64,000 nucleotides of DNA, taken from positions 16,942,144-17,006,143 of the forward strand of contig OX485809.1 in NCBI GenBank assembly GCA_950295325.1, in the 5' to 3' direction. Positions 13,001 to 51,900 of this stretch are shown here, piece by piece; the first letter of the stretch is position 1, and the number at the start of each line of letters is the position of its first letter. The stretch comes from Polytrichum commune (lineage: Eukaryota > Streptophyta > Polytrichopsida > Polytrichales > Polytrichaceae). The notes below the pieces were generated by a model that was not told the DNA's origin, made no database searches, and saw only the letters and a program-made list of their open reading frames with translations. A program made the translations under genes and the position numbers.

Positions 13001-16000
13001 GATTTCCAGGAGGGTGGCAAAATAATTGATTAGCTATGTTAAGTGCGCTTTTGATAAGTTTAGAAGGAGTGGAGTGGTAGATTTTGAATTCGTCCGGGTT
13101 CATTAGAGTGGTACCATTAGGCATGGTAATTTGGTCTAGTGTGATTATATTATGTACAAGTAGTTTGTGTAGTAATTTAAGTGAGGTGTTGGGATTTAGG
13201 CCATGAAGCATTTGTGCTTCCTGCATCCATGCAGTTTCAAGTGGGGATGGGGTTAGTAGGAAATTGTTTATTGTACTTTTTAGGTGGACTCCGGCTTTAT
13301 GTTTGAGCAAGAATAATGTTCTAGCGATGGGTGATCTAACACAGTGGTGGTATTTAATGCGGGTGATTTCCTTAGAGCCCCCATATTTGGCGAGTATGAA
13401 TTGAAGTAGACCAACATATATTTTCCCAATTCTACCTTTATCATTGAGTACGTTTTGTAGTTGTTCTCCAATGCATCTTAAATAGGCATTTTGTAGTGAG
13501 AATGCTTCGATTCCGAATAGATTGTGTGGGAGTTGTGTAGCGATGTTAGATGTGCATTTGGGTATTCCGCATATCGTTTTGTGAAGTGCTATGATTTTTT
13601 TATCGAGTTTTTTTATAGCTGGTATGGAGTATGGCACTGCGTAGAAGCTGTATGCTATTCCAGCACGTATGACTGTATCTGCCATGTTTATTTTTTGTTT
13701 CATAGTAGCTGGGCATGTTACAAGGGCTTGACACTGTTTTATTACTTTAGCTGTAGTGGTATTTATTTGTGTTTTCCATTTGAATGATGGTGCAAGATTT
13801 ATTCCTAGATACGTGTATGGTTCATGTTGGTTTAAGACTGGTATATGTTGGTTTCTGTAGTTGATATTGGTAGATTGGATTAGGGCTTTAAAGGTTGTGG
13901 GGTGAAGTTTGGATTTGTTTGGGCATCCAGTTATTGCGCATTTGGGTATTCCAAGATCCATTCCTGCCCATTCTTAGAATTTGTCTAGTTTGTTGAGTTG
14001 TGTTTGTAGTGTCTCTAGTTTATTGGCGATTGCTGCTAGGTCATCTGCATATGCTGCTGATGAGATTGTAATTTTAGATGTACCAAAAGTGTATCCATTA
14101 TTCCCTTGTTGTAGCCATCTGAGGAGGGGTTCTAGGAATATGATAAATAGATATGGGCTAAGGGTATCACCTTGTATTGTACCTCTTTGAATGGGGATTG
14201 GTAAGGTTTTACCGAAGTGTTCACCAGTGAATATTGTTGAGGATTGTGAATATATGTTTCCTATGAGATTTATGGAGTCAGTGGGATATCCCAGATATTT
14301 CATTATGGCTAAAAGTCTGGCGTGATCAATGGAGCCGAAGGCGTTTTTGAAGTCAATGTAAAGAATATATATATCTTGGTTCGTGAGTCTTGCGTCTTCA
14401 AGCGCTGCGATTAATAATTGGATTTGCCTAGAAGTGCTTCTCTCTGCTCTAAACCCTTCTTGACTATCGTGTAATATTTGGTATTTTTGTCCATACGCTG
14501 ATAGGATAGAAGTTAATGTACTCGTGTAGAATTTATATATGGTGTTAGCTAGTGCAATAGGTCTATGGTTTGTTAGTTGTGATGGGTTACCTTTTTTGTA
14601 TAGTAAAACTGTTAGACTGGTTTTCCATGATGCAGGGATTTATTTTTGTTTATAACAATGTTTAAAAAATAAGAAGAGTAATTTATGGAAGCATGGAGGC
14701 ATGTTTTTTAGAATTGAATTGGGTATTTTGTCTGGGCCTGGGGTTTGTTATTACTTAGGTTTTTAAGACAAAAGTCGTATATTTCTTGGTCAAAATACGT
14801 GTGTAGAGGAGTTTGGGGTTCTCCTCGTTTGTCAATGATATATCCGTCTAAGTCATGCCATGGATATTGCCGGACTCCACATGTGCAGTGTAATGGGTGT
14901 GTATTTTGATATTGGCATGTGGGAATTGTAGGACGGTTACTGATGGATTGTTGCGTGTATATTTCTGCTGCGATGTCTTCTGGGTTAGTTAATATATTGT
15001 TTTGTCTATCAATGATGGAGTCCAGGGGTGAGGTTTCAGTGTTCTTGAAGACTTTTCGATTTATCTTTTTGGGGCTTTTTTCATACATTTGACGGTATTT
15101 TGATACGGCCTTTAGAATGCAGTCTTTGGTGTATTTTGTGGTGATTTTCCTGGCTTCTTTATTTGCATTTTTTGCGATGGTTGCTATGGCATCAATCCAT
15201 TCAGTAGGAGGTGCCGTTGTAACATGTGGATGTGGGATGTTTGTGTGTTGGTGGTTTCGTATATCGTTTAGGATGGGGTGTGCTTGCCAGAGTGGATCGT
15301 GTTGTGCAATGTATATGGTTTTTCTGATGAGGTGATATGTGTTGAGGTGTCTTTTCCATTTTCTCGCAAGTTTGCGTGCCAAAAACCCACCTTGTTGTGA
15401 TGTTCTGTTCGTAAGGTTGGGTAGTGGGTCTGCTTTACAGGTTTCTTCAATCGTTTCTGAAATTTTGTATACAATGTGGTCGAATGTTGTACAGGCTTCC
15501 GCCCATTGATCCGGGCTTAAGTGTTGGTGGTTTTCGAGTAGGGTGGTAAGGGCTTTTATTTGTGCAGAGTTTTCTTCGAAGAATGTTATGTTGAATTTTT
15601 CGATGTTTTCTGGTGGTATTGGATTTAGTATTCTAGTTGGTGACGTGTTTGTGGGGGGTGGGGATCTGGCTATAAGGGTGTTGTGGGGGATATGTAGTAC
15701 AACTGGATAATGGTCTGAGTTTAGATTCATGTTTGTGATTGTGGTAGAAATGAATTTGTTGTTGTCTGGTGAGTGAATGTAGAATCCATCTATTAGACTT
15801 GTTGATGTGTAATTATAGCTTCCTTGTCTGGAGATGCTAGTGTTAGTTGGGATATATTCTAGGTTGAGTGATGCGGTGAAAATTTTCCATTGGTAATCTT
15901 CTTCTTGTGGAGGGGTGTTAATGTTGTTATTTTGTCTGCCTCTAAGTGCGATATCTCGGTTAAAGTCCCCACATAATGAATACATGTGATTGGGGTGTAT

Positions 16001-17098
16001 AGTGATTTCGTTAGTGATTTCGTTCTTAAGTTGTGGAATGAGGCATGTGTCTTCTAAGTGTGTAGGCATGTACATGTGTATGATTAACCAAGGTATTAGT
16101 GGATGGTTGTTTATTTTAATTATTTGTAGGTATGGAGATATATTTACTGGCGTGGGAATTTTGGTGATATTCCCAGGGAATGCATATTTCTTGTGGATAA
16201 GTGTGAGTAAGCCTCCTTTTCCAGGGGTATAGGGCATTCTTTGTTGTATGCATCTTGTGAGTGCATGTGTGTTGTTGAAAACGAGTTTAAATTCCGGAAA
16301 TAGGTTTTGTATATATTTTGTAGATTTATTTGCGGTTAGTTTGGTTTCTTGGATATGTATGATTGCTGTGTTGTTTAGCGAGTTGTTTATTAGGCTTTGT
16401 AGGTTTGGTAATGATGTGTTGAGTGATGACGCATTCCATGTTATTATGTTTGTTTCGTGCTCGGTGTCGGTGTTAATTCTTGGGGTTGGTGTGGGAGTAG
16501 CTGGGGGTGGGGGTGGGTGTGAATATTCGTTGATGCTTTCTAGGCATCGGAGTGCTTCGGTGATCAATTGATTTGGGAGGAAGGGAAATTTATTTTGAAG
16601 GGTGATTGGTGTTGGTGTAGTATCTTGGTTGTGGATAAATTCATATATCTCTGTGTGTATTGAATTTTTTGGGTATATTATATCTTGATTGTTTTCTACA
16701 AAAGTTGTGTAGGGGTGAGGTGTTGATATATGCCTTTCGGGGGGGTTGGTGAGGTTGGCCAGTCTGATAATCAGTGTGTTCGTCCATATGTTATTAAAGT
16801 GGTAGTTTTGGGGTTGGGCTAGTATGTTATTGCATGTGTCTATTGAGGGGTGGATGGTGATGATTAGAGCGTATAGCATATGGGTTAGTGGTGATTGCCT
16901 TTGTGTTTGGATATATTGATGTAGATGCGGGTAGGTGGTTATTGCTTGAGGGTGTAGTGGGTGTGTGTTTTTTAGTATGGGGGTAAATGTGTTTGCTATG
17001 TGTTGGTATTCAGGTTGTAGTTTTATAGTGTTTGGAATGAAGTAGATGTTGGCTCTTTTTTTGTGTGTAGCAGGGTGTGTATGTAGGATGTTAGGCAT

Positions 17099-17125
17099 TG
17101 GTCCGGGGTTGGGTTCTATGTCCCC
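17099..17125 (-). other. 2A ribosome-skipping motif in the LINE ORF
   Basis: The translated sequence is LLKCGDIEPNPGP, with the final proline codon at 17099-17101, matching the D-x-E-x-N-P-G-P consensus. In this family the ribosome fails to join the last G and P, releasing the upstream ~235 residues as a separate protein. An ATG codon (MPN) follows directly. Confidence 0.85.
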
Positions 17126-17374
17126 GCATTTTAGCAATTCTAGTTTGTTAATAAAGTAGTATCCGTGGGAATGGAGTGTTTTTGGATTTTTCATGTGTGT
17201 TTTTAGATATATTATGATTGTGAACTTGGTTGTAGTAAAGAGGTTAGGTATAGCGTGTATGATGTTTTCTATTTGTTTGGGTGAGAAGTGTGAGTTTGTA
17301 TTTTTTATAGATTTTTGGCTTGTTATTGAGTTAGGTCTCCAGTTATTTATGAAGTGGTATATGTTATTATTTGT

Positions 17375-17702
17375 GTGGCGAGGCCGGTAGGCCGAGGCCA
17401 TTGTATCTTTTGGGTGAGGTTGGTATTTTGAATGAGGGTTTAATAGGTGTTTGAAATAGGGTTTGTGATGGTGTTTGATGTTGAGGTGAGGTTTATTTAG
17501 GGGGAGTAGTTTATATTTACTTCTTGTAAATAGATTAGGTAAGGCAATTATTGTTTTTTGTGTAGTTTTTGGGAGGTAGTGTATAGGTTTAGTATGTTGG
17601 TGGGTAGGCTTTGTGATTGTGTTAATGATGGGGTTGAGGGAGTTGTAGTGTATATATCTTGTTAGTTTTATTTTGTGGCGAGGCCGGTAGGCCGATGCCG
17701 TA
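17375..17702 (-). repeat. duplicated module in the LINE 5' region, ~298-bp period
   Basis: The block 'tggcgaggccggtaggccga' occurs near 17377 and again near 17676. It encodes ASAYRPRH twice. Each copy is followed by an I-x-A-(L/I)-PNLFT-x3-K block. Only the downstream copy runs into the 2A motif. It resembles tandem 5' monomers seen in some LINEs, here kept open in frame. Confidence 0.7.
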
Positions 17703-17928
17703 TTGTGTACTTTGTTGTATTGGTTAGGATATTGTTGTATTGTGAGTAAATAGATTTGTTTTTGTGAGGTGTTGGGGGGGTTTTCTTTGTGAATTTTAGT
17801 ATTCATGAATACTATAGGTAGGGTTTTATTTTTAGTATATATTAATAATTTAATTATGTTTTTGTTTTTAGTATATAAATATACTATAAGTAATTTATAA
17901 TTGTACGCCGCCGGGATGTTTGTCGAAA

Positions 17929-35198: not shown

Positions 35199-35207
35199 GG
35201 TTGTGCC
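35199..35207. repeat. target duplication, left, inner element
   Basis: GGTTGTGCC, identical to 49495-49503. Confidence 0.9.
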
Positions 35208-35270
35208 GGGAAAAGCTATTTTGCGAGCGGTGAGCGGTGAGCAGTGAGCAGTGAGCGGTGAGCGGTAAGT
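35208..35270 (+). repeat. left TIR of the inner element with GAGCGGT repeats
   Basis: After AGCTATTTTGCGAGCGG the 7-bp word GTGAGC(G/A) recurs six or more times. The right TIR (49447-49494) has fewer copies, so the short repeat has changed in number. Confidence 0.85.
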
Positions 35271-35419
35271 TTTGTAGAATATTGAAATTTTGTGTGGTGA
35301 AACATGCCCTATGACCGCGGTGTAAAGCTAAATATTGAAATATTTATTGACAAAAATAACCTATAACCGTGGTTGAGGAACCTATACTATATTTGCTTGC
35401 ACATTCTCTTATAAGGTTT

Positions 35420-35890
35420 GTAGGTTGGGAATGGGTCTCAGATGGTTACAGGTTGTCATTTGAGGTGTACTAAGTCCCACTTGGAGAAGGCCTGGGATCC
35501 GAGGCCTCGTGGTTGTGGTATCATTTCAAATTGGGTATAAGGTTTAATTTGTAGGTTGGGAATGGGTCTCGGATGGTTACAACTTGTCATTTGAGGTGGA
35601 CTAAGTCCCACTTGGAGAAGGCCTGGGATCCGAGGCCTCGTGGCTGCGGTATCATTTCAGATTGGGTATAAGGTTTGTAGGTTGGGAATGGGTCTCGGAT
35701 GGTTACAGGTTGTTATTTGAGGTGAATGAAGTCCCACTGGGAGAAGGCCTCGGACCCGAGGCCTCATGGCTTGAGCCCCTACATTCTGATTGTGTTTAAA
35801 GGGTGTGGTTTCTGGGTGGGTCTCGTCATTTTAAGTGGATGGGCTACTTTGCAGGAGGCCTCGGATCCGAGGTTTGTTGGCCTTGGGGTT
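35420..35890. repeat. ~128-bp tandem units with a CCTCGG-NN-CCGAGG palindrome
   Basis: Units start 'gtaggttgggaatgggtctc' near 35420, 35551 and 35677 (spacings 131 and 126), with a shorter fourth unit near 35.8 kb. Each holds a palindrome: GGCCTGGGATCCGAGGCC in units 1 and 2 (one mismatch), AGGCCTCGGACCCGAGGCCT in unit 3 (perfect 9-bp arms) and GGCCTCGGATCCGAGG in unit 4. The CTCGG..CCGAG core is shared with the satellite at 38-46 kb although the flanks differ. Confidence 0.8.
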
Positions 35891-36593
35891 TGCTGTCTGA
35901 TTTGAGGTGAAGTTTATGGTTTCAGGTTGAATGTAGGCATGCCATGTTTGGGTTTCATGTTTAGCTACATTCAACCTGACTCCATAAATTTGAAATCGAA
36001 TCATTGGTTTCAATTTGGGTCTCGACATGCCCAATGGCTTAGATTTCATGTTCGGTCTCGGCATGGCCACTTTGGACAAGGCCTAGGGGTTTTATGTTTA
36101 GAATTTAGTGTCGTTGGTGTACACTTTAGTGAACTTGTAGACCATTGTGTAATATAGGTGTGCACCTCATATCATTGTTGAACATACTCATACAGAGATA
36201 TTAGTAAAAACACTTGAATGCCACGTTTCATGAGGTGACAGTAATGGTTTAGGGTCATTTATTCAAACCAGCATTCGCCTAAAATCGCAAGCAATCATTG
36301 AAAAAGTGTATGAAAACCATAATAGAAGAATAGTGGAAACCCTTAAAGAAACATGAGAATGGTATGAACTAATACGCCGATTATGGAAGTAAGTGATGAA
36401 CAATAAAATTATTCGTTAACTCAAACGTTAACAAGAAACCAAGTGGTGTTCGAAAATATTTTAAACAATATCCCATAAACTCCGAAAGTAATACACATAC
36501 AATGAATTCCATGCGGAATGAGTGCATAAAATGAAAAACCAACGGAAGAAAAAACGGTATATTAGATAGTACACAGACATACACATGAAGCTA
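35891..36593. other. inner element, nothing recognised
   Basis: AT-rich, no gene supported. Confidence 0.5.
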
Positions 36594-38050
36594 TTACATC
36601 AAATCCGAATCACTATGATCACCTGATGATGAAGACATTCTAGAATCACTAATATTTGAATCAGAGGAGGCATGACCATCAGATTCTAAAGCTTCTATAT
36701 CCAAAACTCTAAAACTCTTCCTGGACGATATTTAGATGTAAAAGTCTGATAAAAACCTCCAGCTAGTTGATTAGCAATATCATTTGCATATGTAAGAAGT
36801 TGCCAAGACTTTGGAGGGCTGGGATTGAATTTAGGGTCACAAAAAAAAGGCCGGTGAATAGGATAGCTCAATTTATCGCATCTGCAAATGCCAATGGTAC
36901 CATGTTCATAACTCAACTTTAGAAGAAATGACAGCAAAAAACATAACACTAGTAAGAGAATTTTTATGGACCATACTCACTTAGTAAAGCGAGATCTTTT
37001 CACAATCCTCTCAACGGGGATATCTTCACCCTCATGATCCTCTAAACTAGTGACACGGTCTTCAATAGTGACTGCAGAGGCTGCTCTAGAGATAAATCAA
37101 TGGAGCAAGTAAGGCCTCAAAAATATCAACATCAGCCTCTAATGCCGCAATGTGACGGTGCACATTGCGGCATGCATGAATGGAAGATCCTACAAATAAA
37201 GAAGTTGGAAAAACTTAGTGCAAAAACCACAATAAATTTTCAGAGCAAAAAAATATTAACCATTAACCAACTGAAATGGAAGATTACAAAGACATACCGG
37301 TCAATGCCGTGCAATCTAGAATAATATCCCATGGGGAGCTACATGCTTCAATTAGCATTTGCATTAGAAACACGGACTTTTCACGAGGCCCTCGCCATGG
37401 TGTGGATCCATTAGTTAGCTAGTCCTCACGAGAGACCAAGTTCTGGAGAATATCATCCCGTGCAACATCCACCCCATAAGGATCCAATTCAGGGACATGG
37501 CGAAATGAAAACTTCGATGCAGGTGACCCCGGCACGCTCCTGACCGCCAATGAAATAACGAACCTCATGGTCTACAATGTACCCGACATAAAAATCAATA
37601 TTACTTTACAAAGTAAACAACACAACTAACTTAAGGATGAAATTGAAACTGAATGCGGTGATGAGAAAGAAGGTTGAAGCTTTATCTTACAGTTGATGCT
37701 GGATTTATTGGGGATGTAAGATGAAGGCGGTTCATTTCCCACCACTCTTTCCGAATTGCAAAACCATACGATTTGCAATATCCAAGAATATTGGACTTCG
37801 TACTCATGCGAAAAGGGTGAAACAAAATAATTGCCCCATCGTCGTGCAAATGTTCGTCGGCAAAGTCAATTAGTGGTTGTAACGACTCTTTCGATTCTTG
37901 ATTCCAAGCGGGAATGGATGATGGTGGGTTTGATATGCCAGGAACAGGAAGACTTTCCGGTATATCTGCAAGAATCAAGTCCAAACAGGGATGGTCCTCC
38001 GGAGAACCCTTGTAGTGCCGGGTTTTGTCTTTTGAGTGATGCACAATCAA
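36594..38050 (-). pseudogene. amino-methyltransferase-like gene (DNA N4/N6 type), decayed
   Basis: Minus-strand exons. The exon at 38050-37682 contains LDLILADIPES, a degenerate motif IV (normally DPPY), then 'HDDGAIILFHPFRMSTKSNI'. The exon at about 37583-37298 contains TPWRGPREKSVFLMQMLIEA and DIILDCTALTG, a motif I-like SAM-binding strand/loop. A 108-bp intron (37190-37297, GTATGT..GTAG) follows, then an exon from 37189 reading SSIHACRNVHRHIAALEADV. A last coding stretch (36902-36594) ends in an acidic Ser/Asp tail (SSSSGDHSDSDLM). Motif IV before motif I is the beta-class order. An in-frame stop near 37418, a frame change near 37.55 kb and another near 36.72 kb show decay. Substrate cannot be told; the family transfers methyl groups to exocyclic amines. 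Confidence 0.6.
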
Positions 38051-38309
38051 AGGAGATTGTCACAATTTATACATGACAAATGACTTCAATAAAACTAGGT
38101 TAAGGGTGAATAGAACAAGCATTCAACTAGTTCCATTCAACGAGGAGTTTAAATCATTTTGAAGTTTACCTACCTCTACAACAACCACAAGACATGAATC
38201 TCCCTGATGATGTGTGACTTCATAAAAAATTTGTAAGCAGTGACTGTCGGACAATAACAAATTTGAGGACCCTTATCAACAGGATTAAAAGAATCCTAGC
38301 TTTATACAT
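38051..38309. other. 5' flank of the methyltransferase-like gene
   Basis: No additional exon could be supported. Confidence 0.4.
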
Positions 38310-39465
38310 TGCCTAGTACTAGGAATACACTCAAATGGAAAAAAAAACCCCAACCCCACCCACTAATCTACCACCAGTTCCCCCTCAAAATCAGACTTAC
38401 AAAACATTTAACCCATATACATGAGCATCCTCACCCCATCCCATATGGTCTCTCGGTACCGAGACACCGTCAAATGAGAAAAAAAAAACCCCAACCCACC
38501 CACTAATGTACCACCAATTCCCCTTTAAAATGATACTTAGCAAAAATCAAGTCATATACATGAGCATCCTCACCCCCTCTCCTATGGTGTCTCGGTATCG
38601 AGACACCCTCAAATGAGAAAAAAAAACCCCAACCCACCCACTAATGCACCACCAATTCCTCTTCCAAATGAGACTTAGCAAAAATCAAGCCATTATACAT
38701 GAGCATCCTCACCCCCTCTCCTATGGTGTCTCGGTACCGAGACACCCTCAAATGAGGAAAAAAAAACCCCAACCCACCCACTAATCTACCACCAATTCCC
38801 CCTCAAAATGAGACTTAGCAAAAATCAACCCATATACATGAGCATCCTCACCCCCTCTCAAATGGTGTCTCGGTACCGAGACACCCTCAAATGAGAAAAA
38901 AAAACCCCAACCCACCCACTAATGTACCATCAATTCCCCCTCAAAATGAGACTTAGCAAAAACCATCCAATATACATGAGCATCCTCACCCCCTCTCAAA
39001 TGGTGTCTCGGTACCGAGACACCCTCAAATGAGAAAAAAAAAACCCCAACCCACCCACTAATGTACCATCAATTCCCTTTCAAAATGAGACATAGCAAAA
39101 ATCAACCCATCTACATGAGCATCCTCACCCCCTCTCCTATGGTGACTCGGTACCGAGACACCCTCAAATGACAAAAAAAAAACCCAAACCCACCCACTAA
39201 TGTACCATCAATTCCCTTTCAAAATGAGACTTAGCAAAAATCAACCCATCTACATGAGCATCCTCACCCCCTCTCCTATGGTGTCTCGGTACCGAGACAC
39301 CCTCAAATGAGAAAAAAAAAACCCCAACCCACCCACTCATGTACCATCAATTCCCCCTCAAAATGAGACTTAGCAAAAATCAACCCATATACATGAGCAT
39401 CCTCACCCCCTCTCAAATGGTGTCTCGGTACCGAGACACCCTCAAATGAGAAAAAAAAAAAACCC
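38310..39465 (-). repeat. satellite array, C-rich orientation (~139-bp monomers)
   Basis: About eight to nine monomers. The central palindromes lie at 38455, 38594, 38733, 38872 and 39010, so the period is 138-139 bp. Each monomer has an A/C-rich strip (aaaaaaaccccaacccaccc), 'tgagacttagcaaaaatcaa', 'tacatgagcatcctcacccc' and GTGTCTCGGTACCGAGACAC. The open frame at 38309-38506 is an artefact of the repeat. Confidence 0.95.
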
Positions 39466-39810
39466 CTAATATCTTCAGACCTTCATAACTTCCACTCAAA
39501 ATGTCCAAATCTAACAAAATACCACTCTATTGTTATGTAAATGCAACGTAGATGGCAATGCCCACCTCACTTGCCCCATTCAAGCAAGTATTAAAAACGT
39601 TATGCCCCTTCAAACCTTAGAAGTCTTGGGAGCCACTCCCGGGCCACTGCTAAGGTTTGAAGAGGCATAAGTTTCTGAGTACTTGCCTGAATGTGACAAT
39701 TATGGTGTGCATTGCCATCTCCGTTGAATTAAGATAACAATAGAGTGGTGTTTTGTTAGATTTGGACATTTAAAGTGGAAGTTATGAAGGTCTGAAGATA
39801 TTAGGGGTTT
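39466..39810. repeat. inversion core A of the satellite, ~340-bp palindrome
   Basis: The left half (39468-39640) and the right half (39650-39810) are reverse complements with some divergence. Examples are 'taatatcttcagaccttcat' against 'atgaaggtctgaagatatta' and 'aatgcaacgtagatggcaat' against its partner near 39710. The half-sequence matches 47588-47765 of dispersed repeat copy B, so the core derives from that repeat. Monomers switch orientation across it. Confidence 0.9.
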
Positions 39811-42800
39811 TTTTTTTTTCTCATTTGAGGTTGTCTCGGTACCGAGACACCATTTGAGAGGGGTTGAGGATGCTCATGTATATGGGTTGATTTTTGCTAA
39901 GTCTCATTTTGAGGGGGAATTGATGGTACATTAGTGCGTGGGTTTGGGTTTTTTTTTCTCATTTGAGGGTGTCTCGGTAGCGAGACACCATAGGAGAGGG
40001 GGTGAGGATGCTCATGTATATGGGTTGATTTTTGCTAAGTCTCATTATGAATGGGCATTGATGGTACATTAGTGGGTGGGTTTGGGTTTTTTTTTCTCAT
40101 TTGAGGGTGTCTCGGTAGCGAGACACTATAGGAGAGGGGTTGAGGATGCTCATGTATATGGGTTGATTTTTGCTAAGTCTCATTTTGAGGGGGAATTGAT
40201 GGTACATTAGTGGGTGGGTTGGGGTTTTTTTTTCTCATTTGAGGGTGTCTCGGTACCGAGACACCATTTGAGAGGGGGTGAGGATGCTCATGTATATGGG
40301 TTGATTTTTGCTAAGTCTCATTTTGAAGGGGAATTGATGGTACATTAGTGGGTGGGTTTGGGTTTTTTTTTCTCATTTGAGGGTGTCTCGGTAGCGAGAC
40401 ACCATAGGAGAGGGGGTGAGGATGCTCATGTAGATGGGTTGATTTTTGCTAAGTCTCATTTTGAAGGGGAATTGATGGTACATTAGTGGGTGGGTTGGGG
40501 TTTTCTTTTTCTCAGTTGAGGGTGTCTCGGTACCGAGACACCATAGGAGAGGGGGTGAGGATGCTCATGTAGATGGGTTGATTTTTGCTAAGTCTCATTT
40601 TGAAGGGGAATTGATGGTACATTACTGGGTGGGTTGGGGTTTTTTTTTTCTCATTTGAGGGTGGCTCGGTACCGAGACACCATAGGAGAACGGGTGAGGA
40701 TGCTCATGTAGATGGGTTGATTTTTGCTAAGTCTCATTTTGAAAGGGAATTGATGGTACATTAGTGGGTGGGTTTGGGTTTTTTTTTTCTCATTTGAGGG
40801 TGTCTCGGTACCGAGGCACCATTTGAGAGGGGGTGAGGATGCTCATGTATATGGGTTGATTTTTGCTAAGTCTCATTTTGAGGGGGAATTGATGGTACAT
40901 TAGTGTGTGGGTTTGGGTTTTTTTTTCTCATTTGAGGGTGTCTCGGTAGCGAGACACCATACGAGAGGGGGTGAGGATGCTCATGTATATGGGTTGATTT
41001 TTGCTAAGTCTCGTTTTGAAAGGGAATTGATGGTACATTAGTGGGTGGGTTGGGGTTTTTTTTTTTCTCATTTGAGGGTGTCTCGGTACCGAGACACCAT
41101 AGGAGAGGGGGTGAGGATGCTCATGTAGATGGGTTGATTTTTGCTAAGTCTCATTTTGAAGGGGAATTGATGTTACATTAGTGGGTGGGTTGGGGTTTTT
41201 TTTTTCTCATTTGAGGGTGTCTCGGTACCGAGACATCATAGGAGAAGGGGTGAGGATGCTCATGTAGATGGGTTGATTTTTGCTAAGTCTCATTTTGAAA
41301 GGGATTTGATGGTACATTAGTGGGTGGGTTGGGTTTTTGTTTTCCTCATTTCAGGGTGTCTCGGTACCTAGACACCATAGGAGAGGGGGTGAGGATGCTC
41401 ATGTAGATGGGTTGATTTTTGCTAAGTCTCATTGTGAAGGGGAATTGATGGTACATTAGTGGGTGGGTTTGGGTTTTTTTTTTCTCATTTGAGGGTGTCT
41501 CGGTACCGAGACACCATAGGAGAGGGGGTGAGGATGCTCATGTAGATGGGTTGATTTTTGCTAAGTCTCATTTTGAGGGGGAATTGATGGTACATTAGTG
41601 GGTGGGTTGGGGTTTTTTTTTTCTCATTTGAGGGTGTCTCGGTACCGAGACACCATTTGAGAGGGGTTGAGGATGCTCATGTATATTGGTTGATTTTTGC
41701 TAAGTTTCATTTTGAGGGGGAATTGATGGTACATTAGTGGGTGGGTTTGGGTTTTTTTTTTCTCATTTGAGGGTGTCTCCGTACCGAGACACCATAGAAG
41801 AGGGGGTGAGGATGCTCATGTAGATGGGTTGATTTTTGCTAAGTCTCATTTTGAGGGGGAATTGATGGTACATTAGTGGGTGGGTTGGGGTTTTTTTTTT
41901 CTCATTTGAGGGTGTCTCGGTACCGAGACACCATTTGAGAGGGGTTGAGGATGCTCATGTATATTGGTTGATTTTTGCTAAGTCTCATTTTGAGGGGGAA
42001 TTGATGGTACATTAGTGGGTGGGATTGGGTTTTTTTTTCTCATTTGAGGGTGTCTCCGTACCGAGACACCATAGGAGAGGGGGTGAGGATGCTCATGTAG
42101 ATGGGTTGATTTTTGCTAAGTCTCATTTTGAAGGGGAATTGATGGTACATTAGGGGGTGGGTTGGGGTTGTTTTTTTCTCATTTGAGGGTGTCTCGGTAC
42201 CGAGACACCATAGGAGAGGGGGTGAGGATGCTCATGTAGATGGGTTGATTTTTGCTCAGTCTCATTTTGAAAGGGATTTGATGGTACATTAGTGGGTGGG
42301 TTTGGGTTTTTTTTTTTCCATTTGAGGGGGTATCGGCACCGATACACCATTTGAGAGGGGGTGAGGATGCTCATGTAGATGGGTTGATTTTTGCTAAGTC
42401 TCATTTTGAAGGGGAATTGATGGTACATTAGTGGGTGGGTTTGGGTTTTTTTTTTCATTTGAGGGGGTATCGGCACCGATACACCATTTGAGAGGGGGTG
42501 AGGATGCTCATGTATATGGGTTGATTTGTGCTAAGTCTCATTTTGAAGGGGAATTCATGGTACATTAGTGGGTGGGTTTGGGTTTTTTTTTCTCATTTGA
42601 GGGTGTCTCGGTAGCGAGACACCATAGGAGAGGGGGTGAGGATGCTCATGTAGATGGGTTGATTTTTGCTAAGTCTCATTTTTAAGCGGATTTGATGGTA
42701 CATTAGTGGGTGGGTTTGGGTTTTTTTTTTTTCATTTGAGGGGGTATCGGCACCGATACACCATTTGAGAGCGGGTGAGGATGCTCATGTATATGGGTTG

Positions 42801-45800
42801 ATTTGTGCTAAGTCTCATTTTGAGGGGGAATTGATGGTACATTAGTGGGTGGGTTTGGGTTTTTTTTTCTCATTGGGGGTGTCTCGGTAGCGAGACACCA
42901 TAGGAGAGGGGGTGAGGATGCTCATGTAGATGGGTTGATTTTTGCTAAGTCTCATTTTGAAAGGGAATTGATGGTACATTAGTGGGTGGGTTGGGGTTTT
43001 TTTTTCTCATTTGAGGGTGTCTCGGTACCGAGACACCATTTGAGAGGGGGTGAGGATGCTCATGTATATGGGTTGATTTTTGCTAAGTCTCATTGTGAAG
43101 GGGAATTGATGGTACATTAGTGGGTGGGTTTGGGTTTTTTTTTTCTCATTTGAGGGTGTCTCGGTAGCGAGACACCATAGGAGAGGGGGTGAGGATGCTC
43201 ATGTAGATGGGTTGATTTTTGCTAAGTCTCATTTTGAGGGGGAATTGATGGTACATTAGTGGGTGGGTTGGGGTTTTTTTTTTCTCATTTGAGGGTGTCT
43301 CGGTACCGAGACACCATTTGAGAGGGGTTGAGGATGCTCATGTATATTGGTTGATTTTTGCTAAGTTTCATTTTGAGGGGGAATTGATGGTACATTAGTG
43401 GGTGGGTTTGGGTTTTTTTTTCTCATTTGAGGGTGTCTCCGTACCGAGACACCATAGGAGAGGGGGTGAGGATGCTCATGTAGATGGGTTGATTTTTGGT
43501 AAGTCTCATTGTGAAGGGGATTTGATGGTACATTAGTGGGTGGGTTTGGGGTTTTTTTTTCTCATTTGAGGGGTTATCGGCACCGATACACCATTTGAGA
43601 GGGGGTGAGGATGCTCATGTAGATGGGTTGATTTTTGCTAAGTCTCATTTTGAAAGGGAATTGATGGTACATTAGTGGGTGGGTTGGGGTTTTTTTTTCT
43701 CATTTGAGGGTGTCTCGGTACCGAGACACCATTTGAGAGGGGGTGAGGATGCTCATGTATATGGGTTGATTTTTGCTAAGTCTCATTGTGAAGGGGAATT
43801 GATGGTACAGTAGTGGGTGGGTTTGGGTTTTTTTTTCTCATTTGAGGGTGTCTCGGTACCGAGACACCATAGGAGAGGGGGTGAGGATGCTCATGTAGAT
43901 GGGTTGATTTTTGCTAAGTCTCATTTTGAAGGGGAATTGATGGTATATTAGTGGGTGGGTTGGGGTTTTTTTTTCTCATTTGAGGGTGTCTCGGTAGCGA
44001 GACACCATAGGAGAGGGGGTGAGGATGCTCATGTAGATGGGTTGATTTTTGCTAAGTCTCATTTTGAAGGGGAATTGATGGTATATTAGTGGGTGGGTTG
44101 GGGTTTTTTTTTCTCATTTGAGGGTGTCTCGGTACCGAGACACCATAGGAGAGGGGGTGAGGATGCTCATGTAGATGGGTTGATTTTTGCTAAGTCTCAT
44201 TTTGAAAGGGATTTGATGGTACATTAGTTGGTGGGTTTGGGTTTTTTTTTTTTCCATTTGAGGGGGTATCGGCACCGATACACCATTTGAGAGGGGGTGA
44301 GGATGCTCATGTATATGGGTTGATTTGTGCTAAGTATCATTTTGAAGGGGAATTGATGGTACATTAGTGGGTGGGTTTGGGTTTTTTTTTCTCATTTGAG
44401 GGTGTCTCCGTACCGAGACACCATAGGAGAGGGGGTGAGGATGCTCATGTAGATGGGTTGATTTTTGCTAAGTCTCATTTTGAAAGGGAATTGATGGTAC
44501 ATTAGTGGGTGGGTTGGGGTTTTTTTTTTTCTCATTTGAGGGTGTCTCGGTACCGAGACACCATTTGAGAGGGGGTGAGGATGCTCATATATATGGGTTG
44601 ATTTTTGCTAAGTTTCATTTTGAGGGGGAATTGATGGTACATTAGTGGGTGGGTTTGGGTTTTTTTTTCTCATTTGAGGGTGTCTCCGTACCGAGACACC
44701 ATAGGAGAGGGGGTGAGGATGCTCATGTAGATGGGTTGATTTTTGCTAAGTCTCATTTTGAAGGGGAATTGATGGTACATTAGTGGGTGGGTTGGGGTTT
44801 TTTTTTCTCATTTGAGGGTGTCTCGGTACCGAGACACCATAGGAGAGGGGGTGAGGATGCTCATGTAGATGGGTTGATTTTTGCTAAGTCTCATTTTGAA
44901 GGGGAATTGATGGTATATTAGTGGGTGGGTTGGGGTTTTTTTTTCTCATTTGAGGGTGTCTCGGTACCGAGACACCATAGGAGAGGGGGTGAGGATGCTC
45001 ATGTAGATGGGTTGATTTTTGCTAAGTCTCATTTTGAAAGGGATTTGATGGTACATTAGTTGGTGGGTTTGGGTTTTTTTTTTTTCCATTTGAGGGGGTA
45101 TCGGCACCGATACACCATTTGAGAGGGGGTGAGGATGCTCATGTATATAGGTTGATTTGTGCTAAGTATCATTTTGAAGGGGAATTGATGGTACAGTAAT
45201 GGGTGGGTTTGGGTTTTTTTTTCTCATTTGAGGGTGTCTCCGTACCGAGACACCATAGGAGAGGGGGTGAGGATGCTCTTGTAGATGGGTTGATTTTTGC
45301 TAAGTCTCATTTTGAAAGGGAATTGATGGTACATTAGTGGGTGGGTTGGGGTTTTTTTTTTCTCATTTGAGGGTGTCTCGGTACTGAGACACCATTTGAG
45401 AGGGGGTGAGGATGCTCATATATATGGGTTGATTTTTGCTAAGTTTCATTTTGAGGGGGAATTGATGGTACATTAGTGGGTGGGTTTGGGTTTTTTTTTC
45501 TCATTTGAGGGTGTCTCCGTACCGAGACACCATAGGAGAGGGGGTGAGGATGCTCATGTAGATGGGTTGATTTTTGCTAAGTCTCATTTTGAAGGGGAAT
45601 TGATGGTACATTAGTGGGTGGGTTGGGGTTTTTTTTTCTCATTTGAGGGTGTCTCGGTACCGAGACACCATAGGAGAGGGGGTGAGGATGCTCATGTAGA
45701 TGGGTTGATTTTTGCTAAGTCTCATTTTGAAAGGGATTTGATGGTACATTAGTGGGTGGGTTTGGGTTTTTTTTTTTTCATTTGAGGGGGTATCGGCACC

Positions 45801-45985
45801 GATACACCATTTGAGAGGGGGTGAGGATGCTCATGTATATGGGTTGATTTGTGCTAAGTATCATTTTGAAGGGGAATTGATGGTACATTAGTGGGTGGGT
45901 TTGGGTTTTTTTTTTTTTCATTTGAGGGGGTATCGGCACCGTTACACCATTTGAGAGGGGGTGAGGATGCTCATGTATATGTGTT
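39811..45985 (+). repeat. satellite array, G-rich orientation (~44 monomers)
   Basis: Continuous ~139-bp monomers in reverse orientation to 38310-39465. Palindrome types are mixed: CTCGGTACCGAG, CTCGGTAGCGAG, CTCCGTACCGAG and TATCGGCACCGATA. Linked flanking variants (ccatttgagag or ccataggagag; tatatggg or tagatggg) mark monomer types. A six-monomer block repeats at 832 bp: 'acattagttggtgggtttgg' at 44221 and 45053. The minus-strand frame at 42150-42476 is an artefact. Confidence 0.95.
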
Positions 45986-45989
45986 GATT

Positions 45990-46732
45990 TGCCAATACAC
46001 CCTCAAATTAGAAAAAAAAAAAAAAAAAAAAACCCAACCCACCCACTAATCTACCACCAATTCCCACTCAAAATGAGACTTAGCAAAAATCAACCCATAT
46101 ACATGAGCATCCTCACCCCCTCAAATGAAAAAAAACAAACCCCCTAATATCTTTGGACCTTCATAACTTCCACTTGCGTTGTCCAAATCTAACAAACAAC
46201 CGCTCTATTGTTATTTACATTCAACGTAGATGGCAATGAACACCTTAGTTGTTCCATTCAAGCAAGTACTCAGAAAGTTATGCCTCTTCAAACCTTAGCA
46301 GTGGCCGGGGAGTGGCTCCCAAGACTGCTAAGGTTTGAAGGGGCATAACTTTCTCAGTACTTGCTTGAATGGGGCAAGTGAGGTGTGCATTGACATCTAA
46401 GTCTCATTTTGAGGGGGGATTGGTGGTAGGTTAGTGGGTGGGTTGGGGTTTTTTTTTTTCTCATTTGAGGGTGTATCGGCACCGATACATCATAGGAGAG
46501 GGGGTGAGGATGCTCATGTATATGGGTTGATTTTTGCTAAGTCTCATTTTGAGGGGGAACAGGTGGTAGATTAGTGGGTGGGTTGGGTTTATTTTTTCTC
46601 ATTTGAGGGTGTTTCGGCACCGAAACACTATAGGAGAGGGGGTGAGGATGCTCATGTATATGGGTTGATTTTTGCTAAGTCTGATTTTGAGGGGGAATAG
46701 GTGGTAGATTAGTGGGTGGGTTGGGTTTTTTT
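45990..46732. repeat. satellite tail with inversion core B
   Basis: One C-rich monomer (about 45990-46125) is followed by a second, diverged copy of the inversion core (46126-46395; centre near 46310). Then come G-rich monomers with TATCGGCACCGATA at ~46469 and TTTCGGCACCGAAA at ~46612. A fragment of the core ('gtggaagttatgaaggtcc') closes the array at 46738. Confidence 0.9.
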
Positions 46733-46779
46733 GCAAGTGGAAGTTATGAAGGTCCAAAGATATTAGGGGCTAAGTTGTG

Positions 46780-46870
46780 TCATGTAATGACGCTCTCGGC
46801 CCCGAGAAGGGGTAGGGGGTTGGGTTCAATCTTTGTTTCGGGGACCCTCTCGGCTCCGAGAGGGTAAGGT
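46780..46870. repeat. two further CTCGG..CCGAG palindromes
   Basis: CTCTCGGCCCCGAGA near 46792 and CCCTCTCGGCTCCGAGAGGG near 46847 (9-bp arms, 2-nt centre). They lie just outside the monomer array and share only the palindrome theme. Confidence 0.8.
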
Positions 46871-47134
46871 ATGTGTTGAACGGGACCTAATTAGTATTGA
46901 CGTCCTCCACCCTGTTGGTTCCAAGACCTCCCCCCACATTCCAAATTTCACACTCAATTTCAACCAAATATTTTCAGCCTCTAATCAAAATCACTAAATA
47001 CCTTACCTTCTCTCAAGCACAACCTAAACATCCTCCACTTGGAGCCATTCCCGGGTCAATGATGTCTAGGGCTTGGTCCTGCGCGAGCGCCCCACTGAAA
47101 TTGGCATATCTCCTACCTCACACCTCCACTGTCG
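46871..47134. other. inner element, nothing recognised
   Basis: Non-coding, and leads into dispersed repeat copy B. Confidence 0.4.
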
Positions 47135-48070
47135 CGACCCTTGCTAGCTTTTCTTCACTTAGCTCAATCACTTTCCAACCCTAGCAAGTGTCCCGAGCGC
47201 TAACCTGCACATCCCACGCACATGCATGGTTAGCTTTCAAAACTGCGGACCTTCAATCTCATATTTGGTCACCAAACCCTCCTAGACATGCATTCGGGAC
47301 TCTTCCCCTTAGTAGGTAACCCATGGCTAAGGTGGACTTCCATCCATGGAAGTCCACTCCTTAGTTGGTCATAGTGTTGGTAGGACAACACTACAACCAC
47401 CCGGAGCACATTGCCAAGTATGCTCCGGGGGGGTCGGTCGGCAAAGCCGCCTCACCCATATAAGCCTCTAGGACTTTTGGCGGGGCCCCTCCCCCACCGT
47501 CAACATCCCTTTTGTCTCTCTACCAAGAGTTGGGGCCAAGTAGACATTTTCCCTTAGCCGCTGGGTCTAGAAGCCTCCGTGCAGCTTCAGACCTTCATAA
47601 CTTCCACGTACAGTCTTTGAATCTAACAACCAACCACTCTATCGTCATTTACGTTTCACGTTGATGCCGATGGACACCTCACTTGCCCCATTCGGACAAG
47701 TACCAAGGAAGTTATGCCTGTTTAAACCTTTGCAGTCCCGGGAGCCACTCCCAGGCCACTGCTGTTCCAGGGCGCTGTCCCGGGACATCATCCCACTCAA
47801 AGTGCTATATCTCCTAGCTCACACCTCAGATTGAGGTGTTCTTGAGCGTTCTAGAATTGGGACGCCATAAGCTACTCATAGCTTATGGCTTTACCCTAAT
47901 GACTCCTAGTCTTCGTGGGTGGGAGGTGTTCTAAACGCCCGGGGCCCTCACCCACATTAGGATCACTTGGTCCCTCTCACCAATGGCGTCACAAGTCCCG
48001 GGTGTCACTCCGGGGTCCCCTCTGTGCCCATAGTGTTGCGGGCACTCCTTATGGAGAGGTGCGCAACATC
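47135..48070 (+). repeat. hairpin-rich dispersed repeat, copy B
   Basis: Collinear with copy A at 4601-5582. It has its own perfect hairpins: CCATAAGCTA/TAGCTTATGG around CTCA (47865-47888) and CACCTCA/TGAGGTG around GAT (near 47823), where copy A is imperfect. Part of it (47588-47765) is the source-like sequence of both satellite inversion cores. Confidence 0.75.
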
Positions 48071-48629
48071 CACCCCCTACCGCCTCTTGGAACCGAGAAC
48101 CCCATAATGTGACATAACAAAACATTCATCAAAGCAACTCCCCCTAACCTGAAATCCTTTCAACCTACCATTCAATCTATAGTGTGACTTATTTTCATCC
48201 ATATTCAGAGAACTCAATTTCACATGCCATTTTTGCAAAAATCTAAACGTGTATATGCCCTTATTGCATATTATCTGTGACCCAAACAAACTGTGCAAAT
48301 TGAGTATTCTTTTGTCTCCTCGTCTGATCCGCTCTTATTGGGATTGTTGCGATGCTCACTCTCTGTCATTGATGGTTCGCGTGATCCTCTGTGCTCCTGT
48401 TCTTCCTCTATTGGTTGTAGTTCCATGTTCCTATCTGATGACCTGTGTCAACCTCTCCACACGCATTGGATGCAATCCTTGGAGAAACATACCAAAAACA
48501 GGAAACTCGAAACTCGAGTTGGTAAGTCTATACTTGCCTCTATATTTCATGTATAGTTCATTTTTTATAGTTCAACTACATTGATTCCGCCATTATCCGG
48601 ATGAGTTTCCCACCCGGCATTCAAGGAAA
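48071..48629. other. inner element, weak coding signal
   Basis: Short plus-strand frames (48249-48584, 48293-48556) precede the SWIM-like fragment and could be upstream exons. No domain is visible. Confidence 0.3.
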
Positions 48630-49028
48630 TTGATTAGGCGCAACAAGAAGGCCCCGTCAACAAAACACGCCAATAATTGTGCCTCAACCCTATCACTGAA
48701 AGCCAAAGTGCACAAATTGTGCATGCTTCCAGCCCCTGCCTTAGGATGCATCGTCTCATTGGATTCCGGCACGCCCCCAAAGGTTCAGCAATACTACTTG
48801 ACGATTTCGTAGCTGCCAGCATGCACTTGTCCTAACTTCAAGGAGATGGCGACTAAAGAAATTGGAAAACGGGGTCAATGGGCCAACTGTAAGCATTTGT
48901 ATTATTTGTTTACTATAGTGTGTGATTTGGACTCGGATTCAGACACGTTCATTCATGCAGCTAGTTTTAGCTTCAACGAAGTGAAGCGAGTTTTGGAGGG
49001 TGGTTTGTTGAAGTACCTTGATTCTTAG
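48630..49028 (+). pseudogene. SWIM-type zinc finger fragment
   Basis: The frame reads ..VQQYYLTIS, a stop near 48810, then LPACTCPNFKEM and GQWANCKHLYYLFTIVC. The C-x-C and C-x-H pairs around about 25 residues form a SWIM finger, which in plants is typical of MULE/FAR1 transposases and some nuclear proteins. The end SFSFNEVKRVLEGGLLKYLD is helical. One in-frame stop breaks it. It may be the last trace of the inner element's own transposase or a captured host exon. Confidence 0.5.
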
Positions 49029-49446
49029 AGTTTTCTGTTTCTTTAAAGAAACATATGTATGCAAGATATGTTATAATGATGATGTAGTGAGACTAAAAGG
49101 GCCACTACAAGACATTTGACGCACCACATGTATTTCTCTTTCCCAAAGTTGCGTGACCCTTTTAGAGTACCACTAATTCTCATTATACTAAAACAATATG
49201 TGTTTGACTTGAGACAAACCATATTTATTATTGATATTACTTCCAAATGTTCAATTAAACACCCTAAACCATATTTTTTACTGATACAATAACAATTTTT
49301 CCTGTATCAGAGCCCTTAATTGTCCACGGTCATAGGTTCCACTGTTCACTAAGTTTAGAAAGAAAAAAATCCTAAAAATAATTTTAGTCCAAAAATACCA
49401 TAAACTTATTGCTTAAAATAACATTTTAATCAAAATATCTCGGAAG
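49029..49446. other. inner element right subterminal DNA
   Basis: AT-rich and non-coding. Confidence 0.5.
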
Positions 49447-49494
49447 TTACCGCTCGCCGCTCACCGCTCACCGCTCGCAAAATAGCTTCATCCC
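49447..49494 (-). repeat. right TIR of the inner element
   Basis: Inverted partner of 35208-35270, with the shared core AGCTATTTTGCGAGCGGTGA read on the minus strand. Confidence 0.85.
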
Positions 49495-49503
49495 GGTTGT
49501 GCC
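49495..49503. repeat. target duplication, right, inner element
   Basis: GGTTGTGCC, identical to 35199-35207. Confidence 0.9.
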
Positions 49504-51900
49504 TGCAAGGAACCCACAGTAACGTGTGATGGTTCCTTCGGCCAGGCTAGGATGGAGCATCATCAGTACTTTGATCTGATGTTTGCAAATGTTTCCCTTG
49601 AGCGCCCACACGCAGTCACAACAACCCCACTCACAGTCTGGGTTGTACACAGAGTACCGTTTAGCTGAGTTTGTCTTGGAAGTTACAATGGCTGGGGCGT
49701 CATCCGCAATGGGGAGAGTGACACAACTGTCCGGAATTTCTCTCGCTTTCAGAACCGCATTGATAACGAATTGCTCCTGTTTTAAGTTGGGGACGAACCC
49801 ATGTTGTTTCCTCATGGCCTGGTACCAATAGTGGGAGAGGATTTCCTCCGTCAGCTCGTATATGACCCAGTCTAGACGACGTCCATACGCTCTTCCTTTT
49901 GAGGCACGCAAGGTGGCTTTAAGGTTAGAGTGGTAGCTCTCGATTGCCGCATTTGTGTCCTGCCCAGCATAAGGCAGGTTACGATGCCCCATAACCCACA
50001 TATTGGTCTTGTCAGCCCATTGTTTGTTGAAATACGCCCAAAAATTGGTCACAATAGGGAAGCTATCCATGAGAGCGGAGAGTTGGCGAAGAGCCCAAGG
50101 CCCCATTTCATCTCCCTGGGGGCACTTTGTATCGTACATAATACGACCCAATCCTTTCAGCACACCAGCCCGGATAGCATGGTCCTTAATTTTTGCCACC
50201 GCCTATTTCAACCATCCACGACGAACATGCCAAAGGCAAAGAAAGACTTTCACTCCGGGCCATACTGACTGCAACCCTCCGATCTCAGCCTGCGCACAAT
50301 CTGTGATGAAAGCATTCGGCATCCAATCCGATTACACTGACACCAATTTCGTCTTAAGCACCATCATCCATGGTTCAAGATCGGGTTGCTTGGAACTCGA
50401 TGTAATAATGTATGCCACGGGCACTCTGTTCAGCCAGTCATCAAACACCATCAAGGTGTAGAGCGGAAACTGCAATAACAAGGAAAAATAATAACATTAC
50501 ATGCTGGGCGATGGTAGATGTTACAGATAACACCGTTGTAACATGGAATCTGGCAAAGCAAGTACCTCTAACAGGCTGTAACTTGAGAGTTCATGGAGCA
50601 TGATAGCAATAAACCTTGTTTTCATTTGTTGCAAATGTGGCATCAATGGAGACAGCATTTTTATGTCCGTGCTTGACCATCATATCTTGTTGCCACGCAG
50701 TTTGGATACCTATCGTGAATGGAATGTTGTCGCGTGTAATAGCGCCGCGAACATGCACGCCAGATTCTTTGTAGTAGAAGACGAGTTGGGGATGTTCTTG
50801 CACCCACATGCGAACAGATTTTGCATCGTTGTTGTCGCGTTTGAAGGTCTCTATTGCTAGGCGGCCAGCGACGTTACGGATGTCTTGGTCAGAAATGAAA
50901 AGATCCCTTGTGAGCTCTTCCCCCCTTTCACACACTTCAAGGAAGCATTTCCTATGCTTTGCCATTATTTGCGGGATGGACAAACCCAAACGTAGATGAG
51001 TCATGATGAATTCCCGAACATGCGGTGAGAGATGGCTAGAGAATCTGCTTTTATGGCCGCTCTTTGTAATGCCATGGCAGAAGATTCCTTCCAAGTTGAC
51101 ATGTTGCATCTGATGGTACGTTACTTCTGCAATCGAGGGCTCAAGGTATAGTCGCGTGACAACAAAACCACATTGGCAACCCCTTCGTTGCCCAAATCCT
51201 CGCATACGTGCGATGTTCCATTTGGAACATATTTGCCCTTGGAGTTGAGTTTTCTTTTCTTCTGGTACATTTCCTTTGTAACAACTGGAATGTGCGAGGC
51301 ATTGTCATTTGGCCCATACTGGCAGTGATACCTGTGGCAGACAACAAGTGCGGCAAGGGAGTATCAGGCACCAGACGCCCATATAAGTTTTTGTGTTATA
51401 ATATTGCAACGGGGAAAATGGAATTGGAATTGCATGCTACAAACACACTTGATGACGTCAGAATAGCTATTCCAACGGGGGAATGCTAGTTTCCCTTGTA
51501 TGTTCGATGGAGTGCCTTGGCAAACGAATTTGCAGGGAGCATCAGGGCGGGCCTCCTCACCTTTGAGAAAATCCTGCACTCTTGCCCAAGGTATGTACGC
51601 AACCGAAGTTGCTGCATGAGTCCTGGGGTCACTCCTCCTCCCTTTCAGGCGGATTTGCCTTGCCCACGATAGGTCACTGTGCATGAAGGCTCCCGCTTGA
51701 GGTCTCTGGACCAAACTGAGGAGCCGCTGAAACTCCCCTTTGTGTGCCTCCCGGTATATAGACTCATAGGAGGAATCCACGGCCAACGGAGTGCGAAGTG
51801 TGTGTTCAGTGGCATGGTCTCCATCTCGGATAACATCTAGTGCAGTTGACAATTCAGCACAGGATCCCATTGACGTTGTCTTCTGGAGCATTTCGAGCAC

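Follow-up and report, generated by a model that had tools for sequence, protein, structure and literature searches.

Arrays of protein-bound motifs with rapid turnover have been described for the VANDAL/VANC system of Arabidopsis (PMC5735166, in the part of its text available). The locus analyzed here, a window of 64,000 nucleotides of Polytrichum commune (contig OX485809.1, here C7, positions 16,942,144 to 17,006,143), harbors tandem arrays of a palindrome with the core TCGG-NN-CCGA inside G2, a DNA transposon resembling Mutator-like elements (MULEs). A transposon-borne motif array is of a known kind; a palindrome with a fixed core and paired arms is a new variant of it. With moderate confidence, we interpret these palindromes as cis-acting, dyad-symmetric sites of a large lineage of MULE-like transposons, and predict them to be the targets of a dimeric protein. 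An earlier note on the same DNA had described the repeats as a satellite, a description that has to be abandoned, since the palindromes are not a free satellite but part of the transposon.

Comparison with described transposons

VANC proteins of VANDAL elements are anti-silencing factors that remove methylation. The likeness to VANDAL/VANC lies in the MULE-type transposons, in arrays that differ greatly between related copies and in motif variants that separate lineages (PMC5735166, PMC10398659, as far as their text is available). Non-coding tandem repeats with a short motif are likewise present in G2, protein binding here being putative. In contrast to the fixed-core palindrome with paired arms reported here, the motifs of VANC21 (YAGTATTAY) and VANC6 (AGTTGTCC/AGTTGTAC) lack dyad symmetry in their printed form, and the stem palindrom- is absent from the available parts of both papers. 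Neither the TCGG-NN-CCGA core nor paired arms ahead of a MULE transposase are described among the top results in the open-licence literature.

CACTA transposons (En/Spm, Tgmt*) carry subterminal repeats bound by TNPA-like proteins, in which reiterated direct and inverted motifs, capable of forming stem-loops, diverge between families within a species (PMC2613891, available part). G2 is not one of them, for it presents a 9-bp instead of a 3-bp duplication and its termini read GGGAAAAGC instead of CACTA. The En/Spm motif is reportedly CCGACACTCTTA, an inverted pair of which would give TGTCGG..CCGACA. Foldback elements have long inverted repeats made of tandem subrepeats, and the family A arrays of G2, opposed around a core, resemble them; however, these opposed arrays are internal and the ends of G2 are short terminal inverted repeats of heptamers, which places it outside the Foldback elements. 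The Aedes aegypti MULE Muta1, classed as a type 2 Foldback, resembles G2 in its 8-9-bp duplications, in terminal inverted repeats with a terminal palindromic motif and in subterminal tandem repeats, but its one 10-bp imperfect palindrome lies at the very terminus, whereas here palindromes form tandem arrays inside the element (PMC5225508, available part).

MULEs are recognized by target-site duplications of 8-11 bp (PMC6446971, available part), and G2 presents 9-bp duplications at three copies together with terminal inverted repeats. The duplicated sequence is different at each insertion (GGTTGTGCC in the window, ACGCCTCAA for the copy on contig C5 and TCTCGTTAT for that on C3), while the left ends read GGGAAAAGCTATTTTGCGAGCGG and the right ends its near-complement; two further copies that were probed yielded, at the motif limits used, a right end only and neither end, respectively. 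The longest match to G2 outside the arrays is 98.0-99.4% identical at 14 other loci, lesser matching stretches including one at 95.9% over 98 bases in L005 (fetched loci are given L numbers) and others, restricted to one side in L019 and L028, at 78-79%.

Paired and unpaired changes in the palindrome arms

In the window (38300-46740), 55 palindromes were counted with up to one mismatch in the core, and nearly every monomer carries a palindrome with a 2-base centre. At position 5, the fifth base from the centre, the three states claimed by the earlier note are borne out: C-G in 45 palindromes (spacer TA), A-T in nine and T-A in one (spacer CA in both), the last two classes occupying monomers homologous to the C-G ones. 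The accompanying claim that changes always affect both arms stands at this position, with no one-sided change among the 55, and fails elsewhere: when the commonest arms are taken as reference, 37 changes affect a single arm and 10 are paired, position 5 holding all ten of the latter. Perfect 10-bp arms are present in 21 palindromes, the other 34 being imperfect. Covariation read from one position is therefore misleading, since most arm changes within arrays are unpaired.

The same pattern is found when family A is sampled more widely. Together with 17 further stretches (14 loci), the window supplied 481 sites, reduced to 76 haplotypes, in which 114 changes are single, 15 are paired and 2 are double but unpaired; all the paired changes of the family fall at position 5, where a further 13 affect one arm only. 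The corresponding counts (single/paired/double unpaired) are 87/3/0 for family J, 36/1/3 for K, 15/0/0 for B, 9/0/0 for D, 12/1/0 for G, 19/1/0 for N, 4/1/0 for I and 2/0/1 for the L104 type, haplotypes being non-independent events and the counts for A, B, D, G, J and K keeping one match per centre under a mismatch limit. Single-arm changes prevail inside the arrays of all these families. Continual gene conversion between arms, suggested in the earlier note on the strength of paired position-5 states in three classes, is hardly credible, given that single-arm changes outnumber paired ones inside arrays, that 34 of the 55 window palindromes are imperfect and that variants such as TAGCGAGA (its commonest form in 29 copies), CCTAGA (15) and TCGATACC (11) have been amplified uncorrected.

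Pattern searches across the 408-Mb genome (64 contigs) give a different picture between families. The genome is that of a green plant or alga by its 19 matches to the RuBisCO small subunit, of which the frame read resembles chloroplast small subunits in the PDB. TCTCGG-N0-12-CCGAGA occurs 5820 times, against 178 for a control, the reversed string, whose arms are likewise palindromic and of equal composition, and the palindrome is therefore present beyond chance. With a 2-base spacer, position 5 is changed on both arms at 1282 sites (82 in the control), 1200 of them paired and 82 unpaired (37 + 32 + 8 + 5), and on one arm only at 259 + 347 sites (control, 34 + 33). Paired doubles therefore exceed singles by about 2:1 and unpaired doubles by about 15:1, the reverse of the within-array pattern, in counts that refer to copies and not to events; genome-wide, position 5 takes all four states. 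Position 4 is changed on both arms at only 36 sites (4 in the control), all unpaired, whereas position 6 is so changed at 2581 (70 in the control), with 42 paired and 8 unpaired among the first 50 places, 33 of which come from one array. On the basis of these counts, the core TCGG-NN-CCGA is fixed and the outer bases are variable, usually in pairs. The case for strict compensatory change is hence unsupported inside arrays and strong between families; the view that paired change is meaningful finds support between families, and its strict form, with independent mutation excluded or one arm rewriting the other, does not.

The core is common to many tandem repeats with largely unrelated flanks and different arms, with periods of approximately 85 bp (B), 107 (K), 131 (N), 138 (A), 150 (M), 159 (D), 171 (C), 139-171 (G) and 424 (J), among others, although by eye some appear to share ancestry (B with C, and F with A). 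In the majority bases of 23 sampled repeats, not all independent and excluding family E with its 8-nt spacer, the arms match at position 7 in 13 of the 16 cases where the search imposed nothing, and at positions 8-12 in 51 of 115 cells, the chance expectation being taken as 27%. Hand-picked representative copies, some of them more symmetric, gave 12/15 and 52/110, and the majority-base figures are preferred. The families were sampled from the first 100 matches of each pattern search, which are skewed to contig C1, with patterns that constrained positions 4-6. Some arm classes recur in different monomers: CCGAGAGGGT in the palindrome at 46850 and in K, and CCGAGACAC in A and L104.

Array position and the interpretation of the palindromes

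Homologous transposase-like frames were found at L074, L075, L097 and L098, the main matches being 50-57% identical to the L075 frame. MULEs encode a DDE transposase with a zinc finger such as SWIM; a C-x-C..C-K-H pattern can be made out here by eye, and a Pfam SWIM match in L074 (E 0.046) lies below the cut-off. A first look at the genome with the L075 frame gave 1987 candidates, 110 of which were scored, and the lineage possibly comprises about two thousand transposase copies. For the position test, 409 sites listed by the pattern searches (paired and unpaired, including those with one arm changed and a few with other spacers) were merged to give 191 clusters. At distances of up to 5, 10 and 20 kb from a scored transposase, 11, 17 and 24 of the listed clusters lie upstream and 1, 2 and 2 downstream; random placement at 20 kb gave 1.25 upstream and 1.30 downstream, and the total did not exceed 7 in any of 300 trials. 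The 24 upstream clusters, one of which is the query's own locus (L075), stand at 21 transposases, and each of the two downstream clusters belongs to a transposase that is preceded by a cluster as well. For the remaining 165 clusters, the nearest scored transposase is more than 20 kb away, as expected if scoring reached about 110 of as many as 1987 copies, which is no proof of association. The terminus GGGAAAAGCTATTTTGCGAGC followed by heptamers recurs at L052 and at L096, where it lies beside N and D arrays; a diverged form is found at L074 and heptamers alone at L075. The 10-kb stretches L072 (G arrays), L073 (K) and L096 (D) yielded no match to the L075 frame.

According to the explanation favored here, the tandem arrays, which occupy non-coding DNA and as a rule precede the transposase gene, would be sets of dimer sites in the control region of a transposon. 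Their putative reader would be a homodimeric DNA-binding protein, most likely encoded by the transposon, contacting the core TCGG-NN-CCGA and also some outer bases with a lineage-specific preference. Unequal exchange would spread a new arm variant through a tandem array, so that lineages would drift to different, usually symmetric arms, and individual monomers would bear many one-arm mutations because the array is redundant. The protein, its binding as a dimer and a role in transposition, expression or anti-silencing are proposed by analogy with VANDAL/VANC and CACTA. It is conceivable, though unlikely in our estimation, that the palindrome constitutes a two-part code, with a fixed core that every member reads and, outside it, paired bases acting as a lineage password ahead of the transposase gene; in that case sub-lineages would escape each other's regulators and spawn satellite families as a by-product.

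Several observations weigh against reading the palindromes as dyad sites of this kind. The majority symmetric arm spans 6-12 bp, falling to 4 in L042, L043 and L103 and extending up to 15 in single J copies, and such a variable length is unlike one fixed footprint. The J array in L074 lies outside the element, past its nearest end. A Pfam comparison of the long transposase frames at L075, L099 and L104 gave no matching family. Transposases 93-98% identical to the L075 query (371 aa) carry different arms (GGTTTCGG in L099 and L100, CTGTCGG in L101 and L102, and GTATCGG-GG-CCGAGAC in L103), and arm identity is therefore not set by that protein alone, pointing to a second protein, to recombination that moves arrays or to palindromes born by copying and kept for their core. 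The L103 array repeats its asymmetric form in the three monomers read; this class belongs to the genome-wide single changes, where its CC spacer occurs in 34 of the first 100 listed. In family M, the majority state at position 7 is an unpaired A/A, found beside a paired C/G in the same array. Finally, constraint on the arms of family A leans slightly to the positive and is not clear. In this comparison (481 sites, 449 once oriented, 444 ungapped and 378 of the C-G class), the mean non-consensus rate is 0.025 in the arms and 0.059 in the flanks (median 0.033), the flank figure including subfamily markers and probably indel effects too; in unique monomers the arms, at 0.030, do not stand out from the four 20-bp windows of flank closest to them, which range from 0.015 to 0.049, and the number of minor alleles per site is nearly the same (1.55 in the arms and 1.53 in the flanks).

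The competing account that fares best holds that palindromes are born perfect by copying (snap-back synthesis or hairpin template switch), are then amplified and decay, paired differences reflecting separate births. The differing symmetric arm length of the families and the mostly one-sided decay within arrays are in agreement with it, and so is family K, in which 29 of 69 scored copies have perfect arms and a TT spacer and 15 a three-change right arm. We nevertheless regard it as a rather unlikely explanation of the whole pattern, because the shared core and the near-absence of position-4 changes require sequence-specific action, and because the A-T and T-A palindromes stand in monomers homologous to C-G ones and L099 harbors a paired position-6 variant within one array.

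Selection on nucleic-acid structure, be it a DNA cruciform or a hairpin in an upstream transcript, would leave base identity free and maintain pairing, as positions 5 and 7, variable yet usually paired between families, might suggest. It appears improbable, given that a purely structural rule would not fix four core bases, that single breaks dominate within arrays with no clear extra conservation of the arms, and that an asymmetric array exists (L103); with two spacer bases, moreover, the smallest hairpin loop would have to open the innermost pair. A founder effect alone, by which a palindrome now devoid of function is carried along by successful transposons, would fit the unclear arm constraint in A and a G2 element that retains a decayed transposase remnant interrupted by a stop within its frame and in which no start-to-stop frame of at least 150 aa lies wholly inside (introns not considered). 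We deem it very improbable, as the core persists across tandem repeats of different flanks and periods and upstream of the L104 transposase, which is 62% identical to the L075 query.

The palindromes connect a variety of tandem repeats within one plant genome with an apparently single DNA transposon lineage. They also offer a natural series of dyad sites whose core evolves differently from the bases around it, so that both the origin of satellites in transposons and the co-evolution of a transposon protein with its sites become directly testable.

Organization of G2 and additional observations

The coordinates of G2 and its parts are collected in Table 1. In family N, the copy at 35750 reads GGCCTCGG-AC-CCGAGGCC and two other copies there have a core mismatch; the palindrome at 46850 reads ACCCTCTCGG-CT-CCGAGAGGGT. 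By eye, the central segment of the inverted-repeat core has opposite orientations in its two copies, as if flipped.

Table 1. Features of G2 in window coordinates.
Feature	Position	Strand	Remarks
G2, MULE-like DNA transposon, 14.3 kb, containing palindrome arrays	35208..49494	+	Matching ends, duplications
Left 9-bp target-site duplication of G2	35199..35207		GGTTGTGCC
Right 9-bp target-site duplication of G2	49495..49503		GGTTGTGCC
Left terminal inverted repeat	35208..35266	+	GGGAAAAGCTATTTTGC + GAGCRGT heptamers
Right terminal inverted repeat	49449..49494	-	
Tandem repeat family N, about 131 bp	35410..35771	+	
Family A array, period 139	38330..39460	-	
Inverted-repeat core between opposed arrays, 351 bp	39461..39811		Matches itself in both orientations
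Family A array, period 138	about 39811..45991	+	C-G and A-T classes
A-T class palindromes (core starts)	42333, 42470, 42747, 43577, 44269, 45101, 45793, 45933, 46476		
Single opposed A monomer	45992..46127	-	Starts at palindrome half-site (CCAATACACC)
Second, partial copy of inverted-repeat core	46138..46409		
Short A array	about 46397..46732	+	One A-T (46476) and the sole T-A palindrome
T-A class palindrome (core start)	46614		One monomer in window
Two palindromes, same core, other arms	46788..46865	+	Cores 46796 and 46850
Decayed C-terminal (SWIM-like) transposase remnant	48600..49019	+	tblastn, 46% identity over 140 aa to L075 frame

G2 is itself inserted in a frame (49468-50199, minus strand; SWIM-type by eye) of G1, a larger element of about 27.9 kb (25083-52999) with terminal inverted repeats of about 290 bp (CCCTAAYATTACCC..) and a 10-bp duplication (GTGTTTCTCA). 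Attribution of the arrays to G1 itself was rejected, as G2 is a separate element inserted in it.

The possibility that the monomers are tandem miniature elements (miniature inverted-repeat transposable elements with CCGA termini and a 2-bp duplication) was also rejected, because half-sites outside palindromes are rare in A stretches and several palindromes are solitary. With up to one mismatch and in overlapping sets, 4 of 879 CCGAGACACC matches and 17 of 754 CCGATACACC matches lie outside a palindrome, 13 of the latter 17 representing one homologous boundary. Palindromes without a neighbor in the roughly 500 fetched bases were found in L042, L046, L047, L049 and L051, three of which (L046, L049 and L051) share flanks. 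Palindrome-free monomers occur in A and B, and by eye direct repeats of 8-9 bp flank the palindrome in A, B and G, none being evident by eye in D, M or I. The palindrome may be a tiny insert with its own duplication, but the flanking repeats can equally reflect slippage deletions or chance.

The 10-kb stretch L073 (C2:44441000-44450999) consists almost entirely of a satellite with a 107-bp unit, present in 94 copies and bearing the palindrome core described above, which makes it a candidate for a free satellite derived from the transposon. A dispersed repeat with an 8-base centre, TCTCGG-AGTTGCAA-CCGAGA, is found at L008-L011. The transposase locus L105 (C3:58495800-58499800) is largely N, and its open frame of 2527 aa is probably an effect of the N run.

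Elsewhere in the window, a long minus-strand frame (14708-17806) looks like a non-LTR (long terminal repeat) retrotransposon protein and contains GDIEPNPGP in its N-terminal quarter, which we take to be a 2A-like motif. Another minus-strand frame, of 1294 aa (10077-13961), combines RNase H with an unexpected Pfam match to PCIF1_WW (E 1.6e-10).

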